DNA of 64,000 bases. Origin: Fidelibacterota bacterium. GTDB taxonomy: Bacteria; Fidelibacterota; Marinisomatia; Marinisomatales; TCS55. The DNA lies in contig SCKN01000003.1 in the NCBI GenBank assembly GCA_004124385.1, forward strand, positions 231,501-295,500. Direction: 5' to 3'. The translations under genes were made by a program, and so were the position numbers. Every line of letters begins with the position of its first letter. Position 1 is the stretch's first letter. The notes under the pieces are model-generated. The model was not told where the DNA came from. It was given only the letters and a program-made list of their open reading frames with translations, and did no database searches. This document shows, in pieces, positions 13,257-31,263 of the stretch.

Positions 13257-14141
13257 ATGATTGATTTAGAGATAAGAATTGCTGCTTTTACATGGCTAGA
13301 AGATCAAGTAAAGATATATGGCGGTATTTTGCCAAGAAATATTCTACAAACAGGTTTTATTTATAAAAATGACAGAGTTCCATTAGTGGCTCCAAATGGA
13401 ATATTTACGCCAAAAATAATGGAATTACCGCTCACTATTACTTCAATTTCAGATGGACCATATGATGATAGAGTCGAGAGTGATTATATACTTTATAAAT
13501 ACAGAGGAAAGGATCCTAATCATAGAGATAATGTTGGTTTGAGAAAAGCTATGGAAAATAATATTCCACTTATTTATATAAAGTCAATTATGCGAAACAA
13601 ATATTTATTGGAATGGCCTGCATATATTATAAATGATCTAAAAAATGAATTGACATTTAAAGTTGCTTTCGATGATATGATGTATATTAATAATGAATCA
13701 TACAATATTTCCGAAGATCCAAATCCCAGAAGAGCTTACATAACATCCTCTGTTAGAAAAAGGCTTCATCAAAAGAGTTTTAGAGAGAGAGTTTTGCATG
13801 CATATAAAACACAATGTTCACTTTGTAGATTAAAACATAAGGAACTACTTGACGCTGCACATATAATACCGGATAGTGAACCAGATAGTCAACCTACAGT
13901 AGATAATGGAATTTCATTATGTAAAATACATCATTCAGCTTATGATAATTTTTTTATAGGAATTTCCCCGGATTACAAAATCATTGTAAGAAAAGACATT
14001 TTAGAAGAAATTGATGGACCTATGCTTCAGCATGGTTTTAAAGATTTACATAATATATCAATCCAATTACCAGATATAGAAAAAAATAAACCCAATAAAA
14101 ACTTTTTAGACATTAAATATCAAAAATTTATGAAAGCATAA
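13257..14141 (+). CDS. HNH endonuclease with SRA-like N-terminal domain, probable modification-dependent restriction enzyme
   Basis: 294 residues. The C-terminal third holds an HNH module: CSLCRLKHKELLDAAHIIP (Cys pair, then the AAHIIP His) and DNGISLCKIHHSAYDNFF, about residues 183-230. The middle, with GPYDDR, LYKYRGKD and NVGLRKAMENNIPLIYIK, resembles the SRA (modified-cytosine reader) fold. SRA-HNH proteins are known type IV restriction enzymes that cut DNA with 5-methyl- or hydroxymethylcytosine. The HNH call is firm and the SRA call is by resemblance. It is the first gene of the island and very AT-rich. The following helicase stump starts 9 bp later. Confidence 0.78.
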   Translation: MIDLEIRIAAFTWLEDQVKIYGGILPRNILQTGFIYKNDRVPLVAPNGIFTPKIMELPLTITSISDGPYDDRVESDYILYKYRGKDPNHRDNVGLRKAMENNIPLIYIKSIMRNKYLLEWPAYIINDLKNELTFKVAFDDMMYINNESYNISEDPNPRRAYITSSVRKRLHQKSFRERVLHAYKTQCSLCRLKHKELLDAAHIIPDSEPDSQPTVDNGISLCKIHHSAYDNFFIGISPDYKIIVRKDILEEIDGPMLQHGFKDLHNISIQLPDIEKNKPNKNFLDIKYQKFMKA

Positions 14142-14149
14142 ATTAAAAT

Positions 14150-14368
14150 ATGAGTACAGATTTAACATTTTTTACAAACGAGCCAAATGCAGCATTAGTT
14201 GACCGATTTAAAAGCACACTTCACGCCGTTCAATATTTTGATGTTTTAGTCAGTTATTTCAGAACAAGCGGGTTTCATCAATTAGCCGATAGTTTAGAAA
14301 GTGTTGAAAAAATCAGAATCCTTGTAGGTCTAAATGTTGATCGAAAAACATTTGAGAATAATCATTGA
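14150..14368 (+). pseudogene. N-terminal stump of a PLD-type helicase (SNF2-like)
   Basis: A 72-codon frame reading MSTDLTFFTNEPNAALVDRF then FDVLVSYFRTSGFHQLADSL and IRILVGLNVDR. This is the start of large helicases that carry an N-terminal phospholipase-D-like nuclease domain, usually more than 900 residues long. Homology stops at about residue 67. The frame then enters the dispersed repeat at 14345 and ends in KTFENNH. The rest of the helicase is absent from the window. This is a deletion joint. Such helicases often belong to defence loci, which fits the restriction-type neighbour. Confidence 0.72.
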
Positions 14369-14522
14369 TATATAACTAGGATCAGAATAACTTTAACCAA
14401 CGTTATGGCCGTGCTTTAACCCAACTTGCAGGCGGCTCAAAAGAAACTGCTAAACCGGGAAGGAAATGACTCCTGCCCCGGAGTCATTTTTGTTTTCGGG
14501 TGTTCATTGAAAAACAACGTGG
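14345..14522 (+). repeat. Dispersed repeat, copy 1 (107-nt invariant core plus flank)
   Basis: Shared with 23618-23794. Both copies start with AAAACATTTGAGAATAATCA (28 bases shared) and then a variable stretch of about 25 bases. An identical core of about 107 bases follows, from CCAACGTTATGGCC (14397) to the GGGTGTT after the terminator (14503). The core holds a hairpin (GCCG-TGC / GCA-gg-CGGC, 14408-14436), a possible CCGGG/CCCGG pairing (14455-14459 with 14477-14481) and a rho-independent terminator. One frame through the core reads RYGRALTQLAGGSKETAKPG then stops, so it could instead be the 3' end of a lost gene. A clean gap region follows to 14633. Confidence 0.8.
14464..14496 (+). terminator. 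Rho-independent terminator in repeat copy 1
   Basis: Perfect 10-bp stem AAATGACTCC/GGAGTCATTT with loop TGCCCC and the tail TTGTTTT. The same sequence occurs at 23737-23769 in repeat copy 2. Confidence 0.85.
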
Positions 14523-14633
14523 AGATTTGCGAGGATTGCAGCCACGAAAAATATGTGCTAAACCCTTACGGCCGGACATAACGCCGGCTCTGAATTAGAT
14601 CCCCGCAGGTCTCCCAAAAAAAGGAGACTCAAC

Positions 14634-15026
14634 ATGTCTAGAAAATATCAACAAGGTGACGTACTGCTTGTGGCAGTAACAAAACGTACAGAGTCAGATA
14701 TTAGATCTGAATGCAAGATAGAAAAAGGCGGGGATAAAGAAGGTAAGGTCATTCTTGCCTTAGGTGAAGCCACGGGCCACCATCATCGTTTCGAATTGAA
14801 TAAACTGGATCCCGGCGTTATGGTGTCTACGGTACATGAAAGATATGGAGGATACGGGGGAAGTGGATACAGACGTGATGCATCATATTATTTAATAGAA
14901 GGTGGCCCTGCAACGCTGTACCACGAAGAGCACAACCCCTTAACTGTTCCGCCGGGGTTATACAGGCGGTCCATCATCCGGGAGTATGATCATATAAGTG
15001 ATACATTCCGGGAGGTGTTGGACTGA
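14634..15026 (+). CDS. Small conserved-looking protein with His-rich motifs, function unknown
   Basis: 130 residues, soluble. It opens YQQGDVLLVAV. It has the motif LGEATGHHHRFEL near residue 47 and LYHEEHNPLTVPPGLYR near residue 94; the clustered His and Glu look like a metal site or a cupin-like sheet. I recognise this style (GEATGHHHR ... HEEH.P...PPG.Y) as a widespread family without a known function that travels with a larger partner. Strong start: AAGGAG seven bases before the ATG. The stop overlaps the next start by 1 bp (TGATG), so the two genes form an operon. Confidence 0.7.
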   Translation: MSRKYQQGDVLLVAVTKRTESDIRSECKIEKGGDKEGKVILALGEATGHHHRFELNKLDPGVMVSTVHERYGGYGGSGYRRDASYYLIEGGPATLYHEEHNPLTVPPGLYRRSIIREYDHISDTFREVLD

Positions 15027-15964
15027 TGTGCACATTCAAGCAACATTACAACGAGCTGACTCGCAAAAAGAAATATGCAGCTAAAGAAACCATATTTAGT
15101 ACACTGTCTTTGATCTTTGTAAAAATAACGCCTTCCAAGGTGAATGGGTATGAAATGATATATTCGCGATTGAAAAATGACCCAGTGGTTTCTTTATATG
15201 AAAACCATTTGAAGCTCCACTATTGGCCTACCGCGGGTTACTACGCGATTACGCGTCATTTATCGTCCATTGCGAAATTTTCATTAAACTGCATTCAGGA
15301 TCGTCGTCTGGTTACCTTCTCTGATGGGTCAAAGTCTGTCTTCTTTAAAGGAATGAAAATAACATACACAGGCAGACCCAAAAGACCCTATCCAAAGAAA
15401 CAGGTGCAGGAGTCAAAAACTGCCCTAAACGAATTGCGAGAAAGGAAGAATGCATTTCAGCGCTTGTACTATCATCGGGCAATGGCAGGAAAACGATTCG
15501 AAGCTGCAGCGGTATTTGAAGATGAAAATAAACGGTGGCGAACACCGAAATATGTAGATGTAAGCCAATTGCCCATAGATGACGTGTTTAAGCTGCAGAA
15601 TGTATCCCACCGGAAATATATCATTGATCATTACGGGATGGATACGATACTGGCGGGTCTTGAATCCACGGTGATTGATTCGGATGTTAGCAACGATAAT
15701 CCATATGATTTGATCGAAATGGTTATTCCCTTTACAAACAGAGGCGATGGTGATGGGGAACAAAAAGGAACCTATTTACGAATGGTTAATCCGTCCACAG
15801 GCGAGATCCATTTTGAAGGTGTCCCGAATTACAATAAATACTTTGCATCGGATAGTGATCGACAATGGGCGAGAGATAATACCATTTTATCTCCCACGGT
15901 TCGTGCCGCCCTCGCCTGGCGGGATAATGAAACAAGATATACAATACCCATAAAACTAACTTAG
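15026..15964 (+). CDS. Partner protein of the preceding gene, DUF6745-like, function unknown
   Basis: 312 residues, soluble, no membrane span. The C-terminal half (VIDSDVSNDNPYDLIEMVIPF ... TYLRMVNPSTGEIHFEGVP ... TVRAALAWRDNE) recalls the C-terminus of DUF6745-type proteins, where a small partner gene of the preceding type is also usual. This is memory-based resemblance. The middle is rich in Arg and Lys (residues 115-180). It is cotranscribed with the 130-residue gene. Its last ~20 codons recur in altered form at 26820-26880, fused to something else. Confidence 0.6.
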   Translation: MCTFKQHYNELTRKKKYAAKETIFSTLSLIFVKITPSKVNGYEMIYSRLKNDPVVSLYENHLKLHYWPTAGYYAITRHLSSIAKFSLNCIQDRRLVTFSDGSKSVFFKGMKITYTGRPKRPYPKKQVQESKTALNELRERKNAFQRLYYHRAMAGKRFEAAAVFEDENKRWRTPKYVDVSQLPIDDVFKLQNVSHRKYIIDHYGMDTILAGLESTVIDSDVSNDNPYDLIEMVIPFTNRGDGDGEQKGTYLRMVNPSTGEIHFEGVPNYNKYFASDSDRQWARDNTILSPTVRAALAWRDNETRYTIPIKLT

Positions 15965-16005
15965 CATTTGTTTTTGGGAGTATACATTTCGAATAAAAAA
16001 TAAAC

Positions 16006-16866
16006 TTAAGACTTATACTTGTCTACAATCGTTATCTCCTCGACTCTGCCTAAAAACGGGCCTTCATAAACACTTTCTTTCAGCCATTCTATTTCAGAGT
16101 CGGTCTCTTCCAAATCGATCTGTTTCCACCAGTATTTATCTATTCCGTTCCAGTAGTAATTACGGGATTTTAGCATATCCTTTGTTTCGTACGGACTGTG
16201 CAACGCAGAAATCTTATAATATGGTTTATAAGCATTGTCTATTAATTCCAATACGGGTTTATTATCAGAATATTCTTCGTGAGTTACTAAATGAATCAGC
16301 GCATCAACATCTGTCATGGCTCTGTGTGAGTCATAATAAAATCCATGCCAAATACATAAAAGTTCCTGTTTGCTATTGCTAAAACCCCGTTCCATCCAAT
16401 TGATATTATTTATGGTACATGCCCAAATTTTGTCTTGTGACAATGGCAGGACCCTGTCCATAAATGCTCGGTCAAAACTTGCATTATGCGAAACAATCAA
16501 ATCTGATGATTCTATTATGTTGCTTACTGTTTCCCAGTCGATGCATTTACCGGAAATCATATTATCGGTAATTCCGTTGATAAGTGATGCTTCTTCTGTG
16601 ATAGGAATACCGGGATCATTCATCGATTCATAGGCATTGCTAACTTCTACGATTTCACCCGTTTCTTTATGAATGGACACAACTTTCATTGCCAACTCAA
16701 TGATACCGTCTTCCTGTTTATTTTTACCCGTGGTTTCAACATCCAGAAAACATATTCTGCAGACTTCTTCATTATGCTGTACCTGATTTGGTTCTAAGTC
16801 ATCACCATTGTATTTGACGATACTTACAGTTTCATTTTCCTGGATGATAGATTTAATAAAAGACAT
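16006..16866 (-). CDS. DEDDh 3'-5' exonuclease (DnaQ/RNase T-like)
   Basis: 286 residues. The exonuclease core lies between about residues 36 and 195. ExoI motif FLDVETTG supplies Asp and Glu. ExoII is SHNASFDRAFMD. ExoIII is HRAMTDVDAL with the His of the DEDDh class. After the core, about 90 residues containing RNYYWNGIDKYWWKQ resemble the C-terminal add-on of some phage and RecBCD-associated exonucleases. It lies 10 bp downstream of the PD-(D/E)XK gene, so the two are an operon. It probably degrades single-stranded ends; partners and target are unknown. Confidence 0.82.
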   Translation of the reverse strand: MSFIKSIIQENETVSIVKYNGDDLEPNQVQHNEEVCRICFLDVETTGKNKQEDGIIELAMKVVSIHKETGEIVEVSNAYESMNDPGIPITEEASLINGITDNMISGKCIDWETVSNIIESSDLIVSHNASFDRAFMDRVLPLSQDKIWACTINNINWMERGFSNSKQELLCIWHGFYYDSHRAMTDVDALIHLVTHEEYSDNKPVLELIDNAYKPYYKISALHSPYETKDMLKSRNYYWNGIDKYWWKQIDLEETDSEIEWLKESVYEGPFLGRVEEITIVDKYKS

Positions 16867-16876
16867 AAATCCTCCG

Positions 16877-17584
16877 TTAGTTTAATGCAGCTATAGTCGC
16901 TGAAATATGTTTGTTGTAATAGGGAGTGATGAAGCTGGTACACGTTTCATCCTGTAGATGGGCAATCATTTGGCTGCGCACTGTTATATTATAATACTTT
17001 TCCAATAAATATCTATAAAATGACAACTGCATGGCATAATGATTATGATTGCAGTCCATTAAGTCAGCTGTAATAGGATGTATTCCCATTTTTCCTCCAT
17101 AAGATTGCATTTTGATTTTTTTACTGGTTTTCCAATCAATGATTTCATAAACGTCTTCTTTTTTATCATAAGCAAGTATATCCACAGTGCCGGCAATTTG
17201 TAGATCAGTGCTGTAAATAATAATTTCTGGTATAATTTCAATATCTGATTTCATGCAGTATTTCTTCAGCCATTGTAAGGCAGTTATTGCTTTTTGTTCT
17301 GAGGGTTCGATGCCTTCTTTAAGACATAATTCTATTTCATCATGTACTTTGCTTCCGTGGTCTCTGGCGGCATGCCATTTCGAAATCAGATCAGCCGGAT
17401 CCATGCCAATATATTTATGATGTGTGCTGCATAAGTTTGTGGCTATGGCCACCTCATCAAAAGGCTCGAAGTATTTTTCAATCACTGTTGTCACACTGCT
17501 GAATATTAATTCAGGCTGATCTTCCAGCACATACTGGTGAGTTTCTTTGATCAAAGAGATACGGTTATCAATGATTGGTCTCAT
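16877..17584 (-). CDS. PD-(D/E)XK nuclease (RecB/Cas4-like)
   Basis: 235 residues. The N-terminal part reads SSVTTVIEKYFEPFDEVAIA, then HGSKVHDEIE supplies the motif-I His. AGTVDILAYDKK with EIIDWKTSKKIKM gives the Asp and the D-W-K of the PD-(D/E)XK core, about residues 135-160. A QLSFYRYLLEKYY helix (QxxxY box) follows, as in RecB-family nucleases. No C-terminal iron-sulfur cysteine set is evident, so it is not a classical Cas4. The start overlaps the preceding 82-codon frame by 4 bp (ATGA). With the DEDDh exonuclease it forms a two-nuclease operon. Confidence 0.78.
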   Translation of the reverse strand: MRPIIDNRISLIKETHQYVLEDQPELIFSSVTTVIEKYFEPFDEVAIATNLCSTHHKYIGMDPADLISKWHAARDHGSKVHDEIELCLKEGIEPSEQKAITALQWLKKYCMKSDIEIIPEIIIYSTDLQIAGTVDILAYDKKEDVYEIIDWKTSKKIKMQSYGGKMGIHPITADLMDCNHNHYAMQLSFYRYLLEKYYNITVRSQMIAHLQDETCTSFITPYYNKHISATIAALN

Positions 17585-23482: not shown

Positions 23483-23506
23483 CCCTGCATTAGCGGGGTT
23501 TTTTTG
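23483..23506 (+). terminator. Rho-independent terminator
   Basis: Stem CCCTGC/GCGGGG (one T-G pair) with loop ATTA and seven T. It is preceded by GATTTAAGCAAGAG, as at 18652. Confidence 0.72.
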
Positions 23507-23511
23507 CGGGA

Positions 23512-23610
23512 GTGGTGGTGAGAGATATCGGTCATGGCACTCAAGGAGATTTAGAATTATTACAAGAGGATTTGAGTGATGAAGGATTTAAGGTTATTAC
23601 ATTCAGCTAG
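23512..23610 (+). pseudogene. C-terminal gene fragment, family unknown
   Basis: A 32-codon frame opening with GTG codons directly after the terminator tail. It reads RDIGHGTQGDLELLQ then EDLSDEGFKVITFS and a stop. It looks like the tail of a longer protein rather than a complete gene, because there is no ribosome site and no start context. It ends eight bases before dispersed repeat copy 2. Confidence 0.4.
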
Positions 23611-23617
23611 TCAATTC

Positions 23618-23794
23618 AAAACATTTGAGAATAATCATTGATATAAAATCAAGAATAGTATACATTCAACCAACGTTATGGCCGTGCTTTAACCCAACTT
23701 GCAGGCGGCTCAAAAGAAACTGCTAAACCGGGAAGGAAATGACTCCTGCCCCGGAGTCATTTTTGTTTTCGGGTGTTAATTGAAATAACCGTGG
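23618..23794 (+). repeat. Dispersed repeat, copy 2
   Basis: Partner of 14345-14522, 9.3 kb away. The 28-base left block and the ~107-base core are identical to copy 1, while the stretch between them and the right flank differ. Copy 1 is joined to a helicase stump; copy 2 is joined to a different gene fragment. In both cases the next plus-strand gene begins about 100-130 bp after the core. Confidence 0.8.
23737..23769 (+). terminator. Rho-independent terminator in repeat copy 2
   Basis: Identical to the terminator at 14464-14496: 10-bp stem AAATGACTCC/GGAGTCATTT, loop TGCCCC, T-rich tail. Confidence 0.85.
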
Positions 23795-23878
23795 AAACAT
23801 GACAAAATTCCTCTTGATTTATACATACGATTAACAGTACACTAAACAGTACTATTAATAAACTATTGAAGGTCATCT

Positions 23879-24136
23879 ATGAGTAAACTCACAGCCAATG
23901 AATTAAAAACAAGGGGAGTATCCGTCTTGGATGAAGCGCTTCATGGGGATGATGAAGCAACCATTTCCGTAAGGGGCAAGGATAAATATGTCGTTATGGA
24001 TCTGGAGCGCTATAACTATTTACGCGTGTGCGAACTGGAAGCGGCCTACCGGGAAACCATGGCTGATATAGAAAGCGGACATTATATAAAAGAGAGTGTT
24101 GCAGATCATATAAAGCGCCTGGATGAAGACATATAA
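23879..24136 (+). CDS. Antitoxin of the Phd/YefM type
   Basis: 85 residues. The N-terminal half has the Phd/YefM pattern: TANELKTRGVSVLDEAL, then EATISVRGKDKYVVMDLERYNYLR. This beta-alpha fold binds the operator, and the C-terminal half is the helical toxin-binding arm. AAGGTC lies before the ATG. The end overlaps the toxin gene by 14 bp. Such antitoxins usually repress their own operon; no operator palindrome is obvious in the ~80 bases upstream. Confidence 0.85.
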   Translation: MSKLTANELKTRGVSVLDEALHGDDEATISVRGKDKYVVMDLERYNYLRVCELEAAYRETMADIESGHYIKESVADHIKRLDEDI

Positions 24137-24401
24137 AATTTGGTATTCCGCTGCGTACATAAAGCGGGCCAAACGATTTAATAAACGACATCCGGAATTA
24201 AGAAAGCAGTATGAAAAAACACTGCAAATTTTGGAAGTGAACCCGGCACATCCGTCCCTGCGGCTCCATCGCTTGAAGGGAAAACTGGAAAATCTTCATT
24301 CCGTCTCCATCAATCGCCAATACCGGATTTCACTCTATTTTATTATCAGGGATGATGTGATTATTCCAGTGGATGTGGGCAGTCATGATGAGGTGTATTG
24401 A
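24123..24401 (+). CDS. RelE/ParE superfamily toxin (YafQ/YoeB-like)
   Basis: 92 residues of RelE fold: YSAAYIKRAKRFNKRHPELRKQ, HPSLRLHRLKGKLENLHS, then VSINRQYRISLYF and VDVGSHDEVY. The LRLHRLKG.L....S....YRI core and the terminal GSHDEVY with His near the end match mRNA-cutting RelE/YafQ toxins more than ParE gyrase poisons. It is coupled to the antitoxin by overlap. A type II toxin-antitoxin pair, common in accessory islands. Confidence 0.87.
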   Translation: MKTYKIWYSAAYIKRAKRFNKRHPELRKQYEKTLQILEVNPAHPSLRLHRLKGKLENLHSVSINRQYRISLYFIIRDDVIIPVDVGSHDEVY

Positions 24402-24587
24402 TGCAGTGAAATAACACCACGCTTTCCGGTGAATACCCGCCTATGCTTTCTCCTGCGTTCCGTCTGCGTTGGGCTCGCGTCAGACAAAGTATGTCGTTCA
24501 ATTAAAATAATACTGTCATATTGATTGTAATTTTGCGTTTTCTTCACTAGTTTGATTAAATATTGAAACAACCAAAAGGAGACACGA

Positions 24588-25049
24588 ATGTGTATAATAC
24601 GAATACTAGTTACTATTGGAATTGTCGTTTCTTTTTCAACCCAGGCAACGGCACAAACCACCGCCCTAACCAGAGCCGCCGTTGATGAGCGTGTATGGGT
24701 GGTCTTAAACCACATCAAGTATGATAAAAAAGAGCAGTTTGATGACGTTTTGTCCAATGAGGTCATGACAGCAGTAAAAGAATATCGCGATCCGGACGAT
24801 GAAAAGCATGCCCTGAATCTGCAAGCCTTTAAAGAATTTAGAGTGCTCCGCCCCACAGCAATGAATGAAGATTCTACATGGACATTTATTTTTATTGCTG
24901 ATCCCTACATTGAAGGGGCGAATTATTATATCGACAGACCATTGAGGCAAAAGTATGGTGAAGACGGCGCTGAAGAGGTCTTTGGTAGATGGAGCGAATG
25001 TTTTAACAGTGGACAGCTGATTTATATGGTCAACCAGACCGATTTATAA
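24588..25049 (+). CDS. Secreted protein, unknown
   Basis: 153 residues with a signal peptide ending near TQATAQ|TTA. The mature part has the segment NHIKYDKKEQFDDVL and later WTFIFIADPYIEGANYYIDR, and resembles small NTF2-like or DUF periplasmic proteins of FCB bacteria. No catalytic motif is seen. AAGGAG lies 7 bases before the ATG. Between the toxin gene and this one, 24402-24587, I see nothing convincing. Confidence 0.6.
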   Translation: MCIIRILVTIGIVVSFSTQATAQTTALTRAAVDERVWVVLNHIKYDKKEQFDDVLSNEVMTAVKEYRDPDDEKHALNLQAFKEFRVLRPTAMNEDSTWTFIFIADPYIEGANYYIDRPLRQKYGEDGAEEVFGRWSECFNSGQLIYMVNQTDL

Positions 25050-25064
25050 CGAAGCATAGGTTAT

Positions 25065-25140
25065 GCCAATATGCTCACCGCGGGATTCCAGCAATAGATC
25101 CAAATGCCGTTGGCGCATGGCAATGCGATCGTGAGTGCTT
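25065..25140 (-). pseudogene. Copied fragment of dusB
   Basis: 76 bp matching 30433-30508 inside dusB with 4 differences, all transitions (95 percent). It covers dusB residues about 253-277, in the same strand sense. No start or frame extends beyond it. It lies just after the secreted-protein gene and 5 kb from dusB, the core gene that bounds the island on the right. No gene is seen from here to 25290. Confidence 0.82.
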
Positions 25141-25251
25141 GAGTTCTGGTTGGATTATTTATAATTAATCCAGGTTCGGCGCGGTTTTTTGTTTATCAAA
25201 ATTTTAAAAATATTAGATAAAAATAATTAGTCACTTGCCGCACCATTCAAA

Positions 25252-25280
25252 ACCCCGTTTTGCACGGGGTATTTGTTTGT
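25252..25280 (+). terminator. Terminator-like hairpin
   Basis: Stem ACCCCGT/ACGGGGT with loop TTTGC, followed by ATTTGTTTG. It lies directly before the next gene. Confidence 0.6.
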
Positions 25281-25290
25281 AGATTAAAAT

Positions 25291-25539
25291 ATGAAAAATT
25301 GGTTTAAAAATAATTCAGAATCATTGAACTGGAAATTGATCGGCTGGCTGGGTGCCGGCCTGGTTATTTTTGGATATTACCTCAATGCTAATGAATATAT
25401 ATTATCCTGGCTTGTCTGGATGGCAGGAAACACTATGGTAGGCATCTATTCCATATATAAAAAAGCCTACGCTATTGCAGCAATGTCATTTATTATTACG
25501 ATCATGAATATTTATGGTTACATACGCTGGCTTTCATGA
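25291..25539 (+). CDS. Small membrane protein, PnuC/SemiSWEET-like size, unknown
   Basis: 82 residues with three predicted membrane spans (about 16-30, 36-55 and 60-80: IGWLGAGLVIFGYYL, YILSWLVWMAGNTMVGIYS, AIAAMSFIITIMNIYGY). The W-x-x-GN-T-x-G pattern and the size recall a single repeat of PnuC/SWEET-type transporters. It overlaps the aminotransferase start by 4 bp (ATGA), so the two are cotranscribed. Confidence 0.6.
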   Translation: MKNWFKNNSESLNWKLIGWLGAGLVIFGYYLNANEYILSWLVWMAGNTMVGIYSIYKKAYAIAAMSFIITIMNIYGYIRWLS

Positions 25540-26684
25540 AACCGATCGTTTCTGAAAAAGACTTCCCCACAGCAGCTAAGTTTGTTTATCTCAATGCAGC
25601 CAATGTGGCGCTCATGTATCGCGGCGCGGAGCAGGTTATTAAAGAATGGGTTACAGACGTGGCCCAATATGGCAGCAATAATTTTGATGAACATGCCGAA
25701 GAAAATGTCTTCAAAGACCTGCACCGGGCAGCTGCGCACTTGATCAACGCTGCAGCGGATGATATTGCTGCCGGTTCAAGCGCCACAGAACTGCTTTGTT
25801 CACTGGCCTGGGCCGTGTCGCCAGGAAAGGACCAAAATGTTGTCAGCACTGAAATAGTTTTCCCCAGTACGGTGTATCCCTGGCAGCGAGTGGCCAACTC
25901 TACGGGGTGTGAGATCAGGCTGGCCAAAGAAAAAAATAATTTCATGTACACCGATGATATCATTGCCTTGATTGATCAGCATACAGCGGTTGTCTGTATT
26001 TCACACGTAGAATACGGAAATGGCCAAACCTTTGATCTACAGCTGTTAGCTGAGGCGGCTCATGAGCATGATGCACTCTTGGTTGTGGATGCGACTCAAT
26101 CTGCGGGAGCCATACCTATTGACGTCCAGGCAAGTCCGGTGGATGCCTTAATCAGCGGGGCCTATAAATGGCTGTGTGGTCCATTTGGCGCAGCATTCAT
26201 GTATGTTGCGCCCCATCTTTCGGAAAAACTGGAACCAGGCCTGGTTGGCTTTCGCAGTCATAAGAATATGTGGGATCTGGATGCCAGCCGGATCGACTAT
26301 CCGCAAGGGACCCAAAAGTTTGAATTCAGTACCATGGCCTTCGGCTGTGCTGTAGGACTGACCAGAGCGATCGATTTTCTTAATGAGGTTGGGGTTGAGA
26401 ACATTTTTCAATACAATCGCCAGTTGGCGGATAGATTGATCACGGGTCTGCGTTCTCGTGATGCGGTGATCACATCACCTTTGGATGATCAGGACCGGTC
26501 ATCCATTATAACCGCCTATTTTGAAAACATTGACTCAAAGGAAATTATTAAAGGTCTCAAGGCCGCCCAGGTTTTTGTTTCCAGCCGGGCCGGTGCAATA
26601 CGATTTTCGCCCCATCTTTATAATACCGCTGAAGATACGGACAGCGCCCTGGCGGAGATCGATAACTGTATTGCGCAACTATGA
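25536..26684 (+). CDS. Class V aminotransferase (cysteine desulfurase/isopenicillin-N epimerase-like fold)
   Basis: 382 residues of a PLP-dependent fold-type I enzyme. The PLP Lys is in SGAYKWLCGPFGAAF near residue 209, preceded by the Asp-x-x-Gln-Ser motif VVDATQSAGAIPID near residue 188 and by SSATELL. No catalytic-loop Cys like that of SufS/IscS is evident at the C-terminal side, so sulfur transfer is not assured. It is coupled to a small three-span membrane protein. GC content is higher than in neighbouring island genes. Confidence 0.8.
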   Translation: MKPIVSEKDFPTAAKFVYLNAANVALMYRGAEQVIKEWVTDVAQYGSNNFDEHAEENVFKDLHRAAAHLINAAADDIAAGSSATELLCSLAWAVSPGKDQNVVSTEIVFPSTVYPWQRVANSTGCEIRLAKEKNNFMYTDDIIALIDQHTAVVCISHVEYGNGQTFDLQLLAEAAHEHDALLVVDATQSAGAIPIDVQASPVDALISGAYKWLCGPFGAAFMYVAPHLSEKLEPGLVGFRSHKNMWDLDASRIDYPQGTQKFEFSTMAFGCAVGLTRAIDFLNEVGVENIFQYNRQLADRLITGLRSRDAVITSPLDDQDRSSIITAYFENIDSKEIIKGLKAAQVFVSSRAGAIRFSPHLYNTAEDTDSALAEIDNCIAQL

Positions 26685-26779
26685 AAAACATCCACCTAAA
26701 GGGATAGGATTTAAACAAAATCATCACAAAGCAATGTATTTTTTATACATGAGTGGTGAGAAGATTCGAGAGTGATTAA

Positions 26780-26880
26780 ATATTTTTTTACCAATAACTC
26801 TGATTGCGCAAACTGCAACTGCGCCCTCGCCTGGCGGGATGGCGAAACGCGGTATACGGTGCCAAAAATACGCACTTGAT
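26780..26880 (+). pseudogene. Chimeric scrap: signal-peptide piece joined to the tail of the 312-residue gene
   Basis: The left part (26790-26830) resembles 30158-30200: both encode I.LIAQTATAPS in one frame. The right part (26820-26880) resembles 15905-15964 and, in another frame, reads ALAWRDGETRYTVP against ALAWRDNETRYTIP. The two sources overlap at a short shared string around CCTCGCCTGGCGGGAT, so the joint probably formed at microhomology. It encodes nothing complete. Confidence 0.62.
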
Positions 26881-26920
26881 TTTTATTCATTTACAGGGTA
26901 AATAATCTATAGGATTTAAT

Positions 26921-27082
26921 ATGCACAGACTGTTCTGCTCCAAATGTTCAAGCGTTAAAGACGTAATCCCTATCGCATACGGCTTACCCGGTGTAGAAAT
27001 GATGGAAGAGGGACGGTCTGGAAAAATCCGCCTAGTGCGGGGTTTTTTGTTTTCCCATATTTATCCTTACATTCCAGCGTGA
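26921..27082 (+). pseudogene. Truncated small protein of CxxC type running into a terminator
   Basis: A 53-codon frame. Residues 1-38 (MHRLFCSKCSS ... IAYGLPGVEMMEEGRSGKI) look like the front of a small zinc-ribbon protein; relatives I recall end in a second Cys motif shortly after. Here the frame instead runs through the hairpin at 27024 into low-complexity sequence. Probably a 3'-truncated gene joined at the hairpin. Confidence 0.45.
27024..27050 (+). terminator. Terminator-like hairpin
   Basis: Short stem CCGC/GCGG with loop CTAGT, followed by GGTTTTTTGTTTT. Same style as the other hairpins of the island. Confidence 0.55.
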
Positions 27083-27158
27083 GTATTAGTTATGCAACAA
27101 TAAGGCTTTACTCCCCATTTTTTTCTCCTAACTAGTAATCATATTAACCCAACTTACT

Positions 27159-27653
27159 TTGACGATGTCCATTAGAAAAATATTTACCTCTATTAGATAT
27201 TCAAGACTAAACCTGGTCTTTTTCGGGATACTCTTTTTTTATTGTTGTCAAAAAACAGAAGAGGCATCAGTGAGAATAATTGGCGAAGATTCAGCAGTTT
27301 TGTTACCCATGTACTTACTAAAAACAAAAGGACGAAGGGATGGATACTATGCCTATATTTATGCAAAGTTTGTTTCTGATAATCATTTTATCTCAAGTGA
27401 AGAACTAATTGCACCTGACAGTATCATCATGGAGATTTCCATTAAAATTGGAGTGCCGTCTCAGCTTTCTTCTGGCAATTACCGATTGCACAAAAATAGA
27501 CAATTGTTTAAAGGATCTGTGAGCTCATCTTATATATACTTTACAGGTGGCCAAGGTGGACTGCCAGGTTTTGGAGGTGTCTTTCTCTTTAAAACATCAG
27601 GCGGAGCTTCATACAAAATCAATCTGCCTCCAGCAGAGTTAAAAAGAAGGTGA
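27159..27653 (+). CDS. Small lipoprotein, unknown
   Basis: 164 residues. The N-terminus is basic, then hydrophobic (LNLVFFGILFFYC|CQKTEE), with a Cys at the lipobox position near residue 30. The mature part is beta-rich with a Gly-rich segment (TGGQGGLPGFGGVF) near residue 132. Not recognised. Three possible ATG/Met starts lie within the first few codons, so the exact start is uncertain. Confidence 0.55.
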   Translation: MTMSIRKIFTSIRYSRLNLVFFGILFFYCCQKTEEASVRIIGEDSAVLLPMYLLKTKGRRDGYYAYIYAKFVSDNHFISSEELIAPDSIIMEISIKIGVPSQLSSGNYRLHKNRQLFKGSVSSSYIYFTGGQGGLPGFGGVFLFKTSGGASYKINLPPAELKRR

Positions 27654-27796
27654 TATGAAAAGATGCGAATAGAATGGATTGGTTGTCACATGTTTGCAAA
27701 GGTTTGCACTAAGTTGACTTGAGATGCAATAAGAATGATACCTGCAGAAGAATTTGAAACTATTTATGATTATAAAATTGATTAAGGAGAAATAAA

Positions 27797-28093
27797 ATGA
27801 CCTACATTATAGCAGAACCTTGTGTTGGAATTTGTGATACTGCTTGTGTAGAAGTTTGTCCAGTGGATTGTATTCATTTTACAAAGGATAAAGATATTGG
27901 TGTGGAAGCCAAAGCAGAAGGATTTGACCCAGAGGGAAAACAACTATACATAGACCCAGAGGAATGTATAGATTGTGGAGCCTGTGAACCAGAATGTCCA
28001 GTTGAGGCAATTTTTGAAGAAACAGAAGTACCAGAAGAATGGGATAAATATATTAAAATTAACTATGAATTTTTTGGACAAGAGGCCCCGTAA
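27797..28093 (+). CDS. Bacterial-type ferredoxin (two clusters)
   Basis: 98 residues. The first cluster ligands are in [17 protein letters not shown] (residues 9-25). The second are in [17 protein letters not shown] (about 58-74), the CxxCxxCxxxCP pattern. The 30-residue insert between them and the C-terminal INYEFFGQ tail are as in 7Fe/8Fe ferredoxins of the FdxA kind. AAGGAG lies before the ATG. It starts a group with a small ORF, HspQ, a broken persulfide dioxygenase and a rhodanese. Confidence 0.9.
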
Positions 28094-28320
28094 TGAAAAC
28101 ATTAAATGTATATGACAAAGACCCGAATGAAATAAGTTCTTTGGTTGAACAGTTTATTGATACTGGTGAAAGACCAATTCAGATAATTACTGATAATGCA
28201 TTTTACTCTAAGCGAAAGAAAGTTGTTGGCGAGATTTTAAATAGAAAAAGAAAAGAGGAAGGAATAAAATTTTATTGTCTGTTTAATACACCCTATATTA
28301 CTTGGAGGATTTCTGACTAA
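28093..28320 (+). CDS. Small protein, weakly Smr-like, unknown
   Basis: 75 residues. The core reads LVEQFIDTGERPIQIITDN followed by RKKVVGEILNRKRKEEG, somewhat like the HGxG-lacking part of small MutS-related (Smr) domains, but the key motif is absent. The start overlaps the ferredoxin stop by 1 bp (TAATG). The end overlaps the probable start of HspQ. It is probably translated with both. Confidence 0.5.
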   Translation: MKTLNVYDKDPNEISSLVEQFIDTGERPIQIITDNAFYSKRKKVVGEILNRKRKEEGIKFYCLFNTPYITWRISD

Positions 28321-28657
28321 GTTTAAACCAGGACAAATTATGTGTCACAAATTGTTTCATTATAGAGGTGTAATACTAAAAGTTGATGAAACTTTCAAAT
28401 CGACAAATGAATGGTATGATCTTATGGCAAAATCAAAACCTCCCAAAGATAAGCCATGGTATCATATTATAGTAGACAATAAATCTCATATGACATATGT
28501 TGCCGAAAGAAATTTACAGCCGGATCATTCAAGTAAAAATATTACACATCCTTTAATGACAATTTATTTTACAGAAATTATAGATGGTATTTATCAAAGG
28601 AATCTGAATTGGGAAGGAGATGTCCCAGTGCCGGTAGGAAATATTGGGTCTGCATAA
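28313..28657 (+). CDS. hspQ: HspQ/YccV family (hemimethylated-DNA-binding-like) protein, probable CTG start
   Basis: About 114 residues. The domain reads KFKPGQIMCHKLFHYRGVIL, then KPWYHIIVDNKSHMTYVAE, and matches HspQ, a small beta-barrel that in E. coli is a Lon protease specificity factor. The first ATG (28340) would cut off the opening strand (KFKPGQI). GGAGG at 28304-28308 stands four bases before an in-frame CTG (28313), which I take as the start. The family call is good; the start is an inference. Confidence 0.75.
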   Translation: MTKFKPGQIMCHKLFHYRGVILKVDETFKSTNEWYDLMAKSKPPKDKPWYHIIVDNKSHMTYVAERNLQPDHSSKNITHPLMTIYFTEIIDGIYQRNLNWEGDVPVPVGNIGSA

Positions 28658-28664
28658 TATATTT

Positions 28665-28759
28665 AAAATAATTGTGAATATTTCGGACAAGCATCCTCAG
28701 CGGAAAGTATAACATTAGCTGGATTAGAAATATCAGAAAATTGGTGTTCTGATATATGA
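28665..28759 (+). pseudogene. C-terminal scrap of a second ferredoxin
   Basis: A frame reading NNCEYFGQASSAESITLAG and then ISENWCSDI before a stop. It corresponds to the INYEFFGQ tail of the intact ferredoxin at 27797, with Tyr changed to Cys and a longer end. The iron-sulfur domain is missing. It is directly joined to the persulfide dioxygenase pseudogene. Confidence 0.5.
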
Positions 28760-29219
28760 TGGGTCTGAGTCTGGTGTTGATGGGGCTGATGTTTTATTAA
28801 AGGATGGAGCTGCTATTCAAGTTGGATAATTTGATATTAAAACTATCCATACTCCTGGTCATACTGCAGGTTGTGTATGTTATTAGACATGCGGAATGTT
28901 ATTTACTGGGGATACGTTGTTTATAGGTGGGGCTGGCAGAACTGATTTCCAAGGGGGATCTGCTGGTCTATTGTATGACAATGTAGTAAAGAAATTGTTC
29001 TGCTATCCGGATAATACAATTGTATATCCGGCCCATGATTATTCCGGGAAGTCACTATCGGCAATTGGTGAGGAAAAGAAGTGGTATCCAAATGTTGGAG
29101 TAAAAATTACTAAAAGTGAATTTATTGAAAATGAAAGAAATAAAAGCAGGCCATACCCTAAAAAAATTGATACCGCAGTACCCGCCAACATCAAGTGTGG
29201 ACAAACTTCGACATTCTAG
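28752..29219 (+). pseudogene. Persulfide dioxygenase (ETHE1-like) pseudogene with two nonsense codons
   Basis: The metallo-beta-lactamase-fold C-terminal two thirds are readable: ADVLLKDGAAIQVG, stop TAA (28827), FDIKTIHTPGHTAGCVCY, stop TAG (28884), then MLFTGDTLFIGGAGRTDF and TIVYPAHDYSG. These include the TPGHT His, the GDTLF and GRTDF motifs and the AHDY His of ETHE1 enzymes. The N-terminal THxHxDH part is gone, replaced by the ferredoxin scrap. Intact relatives oxidise glutathione persulfide to sulfite. The neighbouring rhodanese is a usual partner. Confidence 0.82.
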
Positions 29220-29276
29220 GCAAAAATTTATATGAATCATTTATTAAATTGTATGTAATAAAAGGTTCACTTTATT

Positions 29277-29597
29277 ATGAATAATGAAATGCAAAGCTAT
29301 AAGTGTATTGATGTAAATGAGGCGAAAGAATTAATAAAAAACAATAAGGTCACTATTGCCGATATTAGGGATACTGGTTCTTATCAAGAAGGAAATATAC
29401 CGGACTCGATCAATCTGACCGATCAAAATATTAAAGAATTTATAGAGACTGCGGATCGCAGCGCACCTTTACTAGTTTATTGTTATCATGGTAATAACAG
29501 TCTGGGCGCAGCACAACATTTTGCCAATAATGGTTTTACGTCAGTTTTCAGCCTTGATGGCGGTTATGTTGGATATACTCAGCATGATTCAAGATAG
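29277..29597 (+). CDS. Single-domain rhodanese (thiosulfate sulfurtransferase, GlpE-like)
   Basis: 106 residues. IADIRDTGSYQEGNIPDSIN is the CH2A/substrate strand. LLVYCYHGNNSLGAAQ gives the active-site loop with the nucleophile Cys near residue 66, and the CYHGNNS loop matches GlpE. Moves sulfane sulfur between thiosulfate or persulfides and acceptors, in the cytosol. It follows the ETHE1 pseudogene by 57 bp, keeping the usual pairing of these functions. Confidence 0.87.
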   Translation: MNNEMQSYKCIDVNEAKELIKNNKVTIADIRDTGSYQEGNIPDSINLTDQNIKEFIETADRSAPLLVYCYHGNNSLGAAQHFANNGFTSVFSLDGGYVGYTQHDSR

Positions 29598-30270: not shown

Positions 30271-31263
30271 TTACACAGACGCGAAAGATGTTACTTCTGA
30301 AGTAGAGAGAGTTTGATTTAGCAGAGTAGTCATTTCATCTCTATTCTTTGCCGTAACTAACGACTGCCGGAGGATCGCTGCCCCGGAAAAACCTTTAATA
30401 TACCAGCCAAAATGCTTGCGCATAAGATTGGTGCCAATATGCTCACCGCGGGATTCCAGCAATAGATCCAAATGTCGTCGGCACATGGTAATGCGATCGT
30501 GAGTGCTTGGTTCAGGCGGGAGGGAAGAGCCATTCAATAATGCAGATGCTTCTTTAAAGAACCAGGGGTTTCCTAATGCGGCACGTGCCACCATAACCGC
30601 ATCACAACCTGTTTCTTCGAACATACGAATAATATCTTCCGGTTTCTTGATATCGCCATTCCCAATGACAGGAATGGACACAACCTCTTTTAATTCCTTG
30701 ATCCATTCCCATTTCGCATCACCTTTATAACTCTGTTTAGTAGTGCGCGGGTGGAGTGCGATAGCCTTTACACCGATTTTTTCCAGTCGCGGTCCGGCCT
30801 CAATGGCTACAATATTTGATATATCCCAGCCGGCGCGCATTTTTACGGTTACCGGCAGTTCCGGCACAGATTCAACCACAGCTGCAGTAATATCATCCAT
30901 GAGACAAAGGTCTTTCAATGCTGCAGAACCGGCCCCTTTTTTCGTTATCTTGGGCACGGGACAACCATAATTAATATCGATAATATCCGGATTGAATTTG
31001 TCAGCTACCACACGGGCTGCCTGCGCCATGACTTCAGGTGCATCGCCAAATATCTGGATGCCGATTGGTCGCTCCATTTTTGTAAAACGAATCATATCCA
31101 ACGTTTTTTCATTTTCTCGAATGATCCCGTGGGCCGAGACGAATTCAGAATAAACCACACCGGCCCCCATCTCTTTACACAAGATGCGAAATGAGTAATC
31201 CGTTACTCCTGCCATGGGCGCCAGGAGGATGGGTGTGTTTATCTTAACATTACCAATCTGCAT
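30271..31263 (-). CDS. dusB: tRNA-dihydrouridine synthase
   Basis: 330 residues. A flavin TIM barrel that reduces uridines in tRNA D-loops. It opens ILLAPMAGVTDYSFR. The catalytic Cys is in INYGCPVPKITKKGAGSAA near residue 100, with FMN-binding VIGNGDIKKPED and VMVARAALGNPWFF. The four-helix tRNA-binding C-terminal domain is intact to the end. dus genes are known insertion sites for genomic islands in other bacteria. Here the island's right edge is exactly at the 3' end of this gene. Confidence 0.95.
   Translation of the reverse strand: MQIGNVKINTPILLAPMAGVTDYSFRILCKEMGAGVVYSEFVSAHGIIRENEKTLDMIRFTKMERPIGIQIFGDAPEVMAQAARVVADKFNPDIIDINYGCPVPKITKKGAGSAALKDLCLMDDITAAVVESVPELPVTVKMRAGWDISNIVAIEAGPRLEKIGVKAIALHPRTTKQSYKGDAKWEWIKELKEVVSIPVIGNGDIKKPEDIIRMFEETGCDAVMVARAALGNPWFFKEASALLNGSSLPPEPSTHDRITMCRRHLDLLLESRGEHIGTNLMRKHFGWYIKGFSGAAILRQSLVTAKNRDEMTTLLNQTLSTSEVTSFASV

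Follow-up and report, generated by a model that had tools for sequence, protein, structure and literature searches.

SAM-II riboswitches are regulators of methionine and sulphur genes. In the two Rfam families RF00521 (SAM_alpha) and RF01726 (SAM-II long loop), an H-type pseudoknot of P1 and P2 bearing the motifs UUU, UUGC and GCUAAA is joined to a terminator or a ribosome-binding-site (RBS) platform. The three motifs mark what we take to be the SAM-contacting positions of the SAM-II crystal structure. Aptamers also occur in series: 44 tandem SAM-II riboswitches have been described, some with a terminator first and RBS control second, along with two examples of SAM-I/IV followed by SAM-II (PMC9481103), and in Pelagibacter SAM-II and SAM-V precede bhmT (PMC2704228, PMC11508383).

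The 64-kb stretch of DNA analyzed here (the window) contains two copies of an element that shares the pseudoknot, the motifs and the platforms of these RNAs. We put at about 90% the probability that each copy is a 5′ leader, with promoter, SAM-II-type aptamer and terminator, controlled by S-adenosylmethionine (SAM), copy 1 doubly so; the reading draws on sequence, structure, architecture and phylogenetic pattern. Copy 1 consists of two SAM-II aptamers in series, the first with a terminator and the second with RBS control, as in the published tandems (PMC9481103), and copy 2 of the first only. In the marine bacterium Pelagibacter ubique (PMC2704228, PMC11508383) one SAM sensor likewise follows another, and the pair is regarded as controlling transcription and translation, but the second aptamer here matches SAM-II, and SAM-V (RF01826) gives no match up to E 10 in 14300–14650. 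Compared with SAM-II as described, the window elements score below the gathering threshold, the first aptamer has an AACC loop and a shifted P1, and the leaders do not precede methionine or sulphur genes. In PMC9481103 neither Marinimicrobia nor phage genes are named in the main text; here the leader is conserved while the genes behind it vary. The type of switch is already known, since tandem SAM-II with terminator and RBS control has been published (PMC9481103); as far as checked, the genes it accompanies and the swapping of leaders are new, and the open-access literature yielded no papers on Marinimicrobia SAM riboswitches or on the present gene association.

BLASTN and exact-block comparison confirm the two-copy repeat reported in the first-pass annotation (14345–14522 and 23618–23794; 92.8% identity over 181 columns within the window, E 8.5e-71), including its 28-nt left block, which is identical in both copies. 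The core described there as 107 nt long is indeed free of mismatches, although the longest exact block is 110 nt (14395–14504 = 23668–23777). The outer flanks were said to have diverged, but likeness continues as far as 14523/23795 and reaches into CGTGGA, where the second aptamer starts. The ‘helicase stump’ fused to copy 1 is a 72-aa ORF (14150–14368) with no Pfam or PADLOC match, which leaves the helicase assignment unverified. The genome (2.09 Mb, 11 contigs) contains exactly two copies and no third, 100 shuffled windows contain no match to the 42-nt 5′ part of the core, and plasmid and phage collections contain no match to the element.

The 22-nt stretch between left block and core has diverged, as had been noted, yet it holds a promoter spacer of fixed length. 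With the −35 element in the left block and the −10 element before the core, the diverged gap would be mostly the 17-nt spacer, which leads up to the −10, and transcription would start approximately where the core begins. Both copies read TTGATA, N17, then TAACTT or TACATT, and the leaders of two relatives (G002, G004) have TTGAAT-N17-TAACTT at the equivalent place. The predicted promoter elements are:

14365–14370, + strand: −35 element TTGATA of copy 1, inside the left block (14345–14372), identical in copy 2
14388–14393, + strand: −10 element TAACTT of copy 1, a sequence match with presumed activity
23618–23645, + strand: left block of copy 2, with −35 at 23638–23643 and −10 TACATT at 23661–23666

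With default settings, an Rfam search of the window returns nothing at gathering thresholds, and the core subfamily has been overlooked at these thresholds. A permissive scan (cmscan) of 351 bases (14300–14650) gives an RF00521 match that coincides exactly with the core and an RF01726 match behind it, scoring 27.9 and 34.7 bits against gathering scores of 36 and 44. The gathering score being a detection threshold, the elements are labeled ‘SAM-II-type’. Both matches recur in relatives of the element.

14398–14474, + strand: first aptamer of copy 1, SAM-II type (RF00521, 27.9 bits, E 1.6e-4)
14407–14412/14432–14437, + strand: P1 of the first aptamer
14420–14422/14457–14459, + strand: pseudoknot P2 of the first aptamer
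23671–23747, + strand: aptamer of copy 2, identical to copy 1
14464–14496, + strand: intrinsic terminator of copy 1, AAATGACTCC-TGCCCC-GGAGTCATTT plus U-tract, which folds
23737–23769, + strand: terminator of copy 2, identical to copy 1

In an alignment of 39 aptamers (27 metH-type, 7 core type and 5 second-aptamer type), the P1 and P2 pseudoknot forms throughout. The ligand-pocket motifs UUU, UUGC and GCUAAA are present in the window, metH and tandem copies, 39/39 aptamers in all, a count to be read with the motifs' second role as alignment anchors. P2 is compensated across groups (CCC/GGG, ACC/GGT, ACCA/TGGT, GAGG/CCTT). Within the narrow core subfamily the compensatory change is limited to one pair: P1 keeps 6/6 pairs in every core copy, one of them changing from G-U to A-U, and the three pairs of P2 include one C-G to A-U double change. 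Loop-to-tail complementarity is 325, against a shuffled mean of 291 (sd 11) reached or exceeded by 14 of 5000 shuffles, a control in which relatedness is still present. Single-sequence folding z-scores are −1.3 to −1.4, unconvincing values that are expected for a pseudoknot. The terminator hairpin is kept while its arms change (ATGACTCC/GGAGTCAT in some copies, AAAAGCGC/GCGCTTTT in others). The structured-RNA option of the first-pass annotation is upheld by the significant though sub-threshold SAM-II matches, the kept stem and pseudoknot with compensatory change, and the swapped terminator arms: the core comprises a diverged aptamer of SAM-II type with an intrinsic terminator behind it, and is neither coding nor a transposon.

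That the core could instead be the 3′ end of a lost gene family had been proposed from a frame, RYGRALTQLAGGSKETAKPGRK, that is open in both window copies. Two homologs (L006, L008) carry a one-base insertion and different stops within this frame, inside ‘RYGRALTQLAGG’, and a third (L005) has an extra hairpin inserted in the aptamer loop, tolerable in an RNA and not in a protein, which excludes the coding explanation. Changes among homologs track pairing and not codons. The coding reading is refuted by these three sequences, and its probability is vanishingly small.

The first aptamer deviates in its details. The base before UUU is C and not A in most core-subfamily copies, both window copies included, and P1 is displaced away from the pocket by one or two bases. 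These features, the sub-threshold scores and the lack of methionine genes behind the leader would fit a SAM-II-derived RNA whose ligand has changed to a SAM-related accessory signal and which is no longer a SAM switch, and variants with changed ligands are known for SAM-I, where one that senses spermidine offers a precedent (PMC10853860). We consider this improbable: UUU, UUGC and GCUAAA are unaltered, two relatives (G013, G054) retain the A, the second aptamer in series fits SAM-II better, and the same accessory genes follow SAM-I/IV in other lineages, above gathering in G081 for example.

Sensing of SAM remains our preferred reading, and the two expression platforms suggest how it may act. 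Behind the first aptamer, CCGGG, the 3′ strand of P2, could pair with CCCGG in the terminator loop. This candidate antiterminator reaches −13.8 kcal/mol as a nascent fold in the window and −13.2 and −11.2 in two G004 copies; the fold is weak in G054 and G013, and the G002 value is uninformative, with the cut placed at an earlier CCGG. Pairing of the terminator 5′ arm with P1 was rejected as an antiterminator, being no better than with shuffled arms and showing nothing beyond composition. The platform of the second aptamer, whose P1 and P2 are present and whose relatives are conserved (alignment A4), appears clearer than that of the first. An anti-Shine-Dalgarno (anti-SD) sequence, GGTCTCC (14608–14614), pairs either with the aptamer (14521–14531) or with the Shine-Dalgarno (SD) sequence GGAGAC (14623–14628). 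In the free RNA the aptamer sequence GGAGAUUUGC pairs with the anti-SD and the SD is open; when P1 is forced, the anti-SD pairs with the SD. The same switch is predicted in 5/5 homologs (window, two G002 loci, G004, G064). Copy 1 has a leader layout of terminator after aptamer 1, SD-sequestering fold after aptamer 2, and an ORF from 14634.

14455–14481, + strand: candidate antiterminator, CCGGG (3′ strand of P2) with CCCGG (terminator loop)
14513–14571, + strand: second SAM-II aptamer, 3′ of copy 1 (RF01726, 34.7 bits, E 4.3e-5)
14604–14628, + strand: translational platform, mutually exclusive folds in 5/5 homologs

Very probably, judging from the sequence, the RNA of the element senses SAM and halts transcription of the gene behind it; SAM binding, the direction of switching, the antiterminator and a physiological role are what we infer. 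Plentiful SAM would bind the pseudoknot, in which P2 takes up the GGG otherwise available to the antiterminator; with the antiterminator lost, the terminator would fold and transcription would stop. At low SAM, transcription would read through. In copy 1 the read-through RNA would reach the second aptamer, where the decision would be repeated at translation: with SAM bound, P1 would free the anti-SD to mask the ribosome site, and without SAM the anti-SD would pair with the aptamer 5′ arm and leave the site open. The operon at 14634–15964 would be on solely when SAM is scarce, gated in transcription and then in translation.

14634–15026, + strand: leader-controlled ORF of 130 aa, ‘QGDVLL’ protein, with marine viral homologs (PHROG 27831, E 7e-7)
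15026–15964, + strand: second operon ORF of 312 aa, with a homolog next to QGDVLL in each of two viral contigs

This operon is phage-like and has no association with methionine or SAM genes. The 312-aa protein is 38% identical over 300 aa to its relative in one viral contig (L094) and 35% to that in another (L095). Both relatives adjoin QGDVLL, despite a peptide-pattern search that found no viral relatives of the 312-aa protein, of gene B (the ORF behind a G002 leader), of MoxR or of MetK. AlphaFold gives no usable model of the 312-aa protein (pLDDT 40) and a moderate one of the 130-aa protein (75.5), the latter without a credible match in the PDB. PADLOC found no defense-system match among the leader-controlled ORFs tested. 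Neither the core nor the SAM-I/IV leader has an exact match in the viral contigs, and these searches lend no support to a phage origin of the leaders. Just upstream lies an HNH endonuclease (13257–14141) that is 63% identical to the HNH just upstream of the G064 leader. On the other strand, RNase_T-type and Cas4/PD-(D/E)XK-like nucleases follow the QGDVLL and 312-aa genes, and the region 14634–17584 is possibly a prophage remnant.

Copy 2 is probably an orphan relic that has kept only the first switch. Its likeness to copy 1 breaks off inside CGTGGA, with which aptamer 2 begins, and a second aptamer was therefore probably once present and has since been lost. A toxin–antitoxin pair, possibly with a promoter of its own, starts about 80 nt beyond this end.

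23790–23795, + strand: stub ‘CGTGGA’ of the presumably lost second aptamer, 6 nt, where the copy alignment ends
23879–24136, + strand: Phd/YefM-like antitoxin ORF (PF02604, E 2.8e-5, below cut-off)
24123–24401, + strand: YafQ/RelE-like toxin ORF (PF15738, E 7.5e-6, below cut-off)

The stretch 23499–29532 is 99.4% identical to SCKP01000042.1 (strain D37C17), in which the upstream sequence differs, indicating that the region around copy 2 is rearranging. Positions 23499–25247 are also 99.7% identical to a genome of another family (G136), with the breakpoint directly after a terminator; this may be a recent transfer or a mis-binned contig.

The named relatives of the leader belong to Candidatus Neomarinimicrobiota/Marinimicrobia, and the window is assigned to this phylum accordingly. 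RF00521 is matched in 82 of 101 related genomes. Of the 30 best matches, 29 lie 22–64 nt before metH, the ordinary use of SAM-II in the phylum. The present genome (G000) is among them, with a canonical SAM-II 36 nt upstream of metH that scores 47.6 bits, above gathering. The core-subfamily model is strong in eight genomes (G000, G002, G004, G006, G013, G054, G131, G136) and weaker elsewhere; the second-aptamer type occurs in about 11, the weakest two of which (G008, G015) overlap metH-type matches. Tandem leaders with aptamers about 80–130 nt apart are found in G000, G002, G142, G169, G235, G237 and G239, and a further one, in G131, is truncated where its contig stops; many of the related genomes are fragmentary MAGs in which leaders lie at contig ends. 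The tandem leaders span several families of Neomarinimicrobiota and precede short accessory ORFs of varying identity: QGDVLL and the 312-aa protein in the window, gene B in G002, and short Cys-rich or unknown proteins in the remaining five. The window and G002 leaders are 91% identical over 287 bases, ending at the start codon, compared with 80% for metH.

Near-identical leaders before different genes in sister species bear out part of the ‘recent mobility’ suggested in the first-pass annotation, but not a transposon. Two identical copies would also be accounted for by a small non-autonomous mobile element or a site of recombination (an integron attC among the candidates) carrying a terminator by chance, and this reading could draw on the integron integrase of this genome and on a row of partial and full related copies among toxin–antitoxin genes in G004. 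We regard it as highly improbable. Neither transposase nor flanking duplications were seen, the core occurs only twice in the genome, and elsewhere the element directly precedes start codons as a 5′ leader whose layout has the logic of a promoter and ribosome site. Identity with attC was rejected, since the attC-like sites beside the genome's own IntI differ from the core in sequence. The integrase itself (G000:C7:29920–30858) scores 432.8 bits, above the curated cut-off, and attC-like sites and cassettes adjoin it. The G004 row (L016, G004:C135, 2700–9100) comprises toxin–antitoxin or Fic genes (RHH/PIN, AbiE, Fic), with full, terminator-only and end-only leader copies between genes and Fic between direct repeats of roughly 100 bp.

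Control by a SAM riboswitch is further supported by exchange of the sensor. SAM-I/IV (RF01725) is found above gathering in 23 of 200 relatives, often in one shared terminator/SD leader with varied short ORFs behind it. Gene B follows SAM-II leaders in G002 and G004 and SAM-I/IV in G081 (50.4 bits). A zinc-ribbon-like ORF is preceded by a SAM-II leader in both G002 and G004; in G026, at the end of a contig, it is preceded by the 3′ half of a leader that Rfam did not report and that was assigned to SAM-I/IV by its 83% identity to the G064 leader. That the same accessory gene can be preceded by either of two unrelated SAM aptamers supports SAM as the ligand. In G064 and G131 the two sensors are combined as SAM-I/IV, short ORF and window-type SAM-II, resembling the published SAM-I/IV-then-SAM-II pairs (PMC9481103), but G064 continues through an operon that ends in SAM synthetase. 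The G064 order is SAM-I/IV, a 93-aa ORF, SAM-II, a MoxR-like ATPase, two unassigned proteins (one without a Pfam match, VWA-like on reading of its sequence) and SAM synthetase. The same four genes recur at a contig end in G040.

G064:C25 (L096 10282–15256) and G040:C55 (L103): MoxR-to-SAM synthetase operon

Behind closely related, unchanging leaders the genes differ, and SAM-II and SAM-I/IV swap before the same accessory genes, which suggests SAM level as an input signal for uncharacterised accessory genes of a mostly uncultured marine phylum. A more tentative proposal, which we hold to be rather unlikely as a whole, is that Neomarinimicrobiota possess a recombining cassette of one or two interchangeable SAM riboswitches (SAM-II or SAM-I/IV) that places a varying set of phage-like and conflict-type genes, in one case with SAM synthetase among them, under SAM-depletion control. 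It is tempting to speculate that such genes would be switched on at SAM collapse, for instance upon consumption of SAM by a phage.

Two further repeats were observed in the window. Intergenic terminators of the form ‘GATTTAAGCAAGAGCCCCGC...GCGGG’ recur between scattered genes (18638, 19148, 23469). A 78-nt near-identical repeat (95%) occupies 25064–25141 and 30432–30509; its second copy lies inside a minus-strand ORF (30271–31263), and the first may accordingly be a gene fragment.
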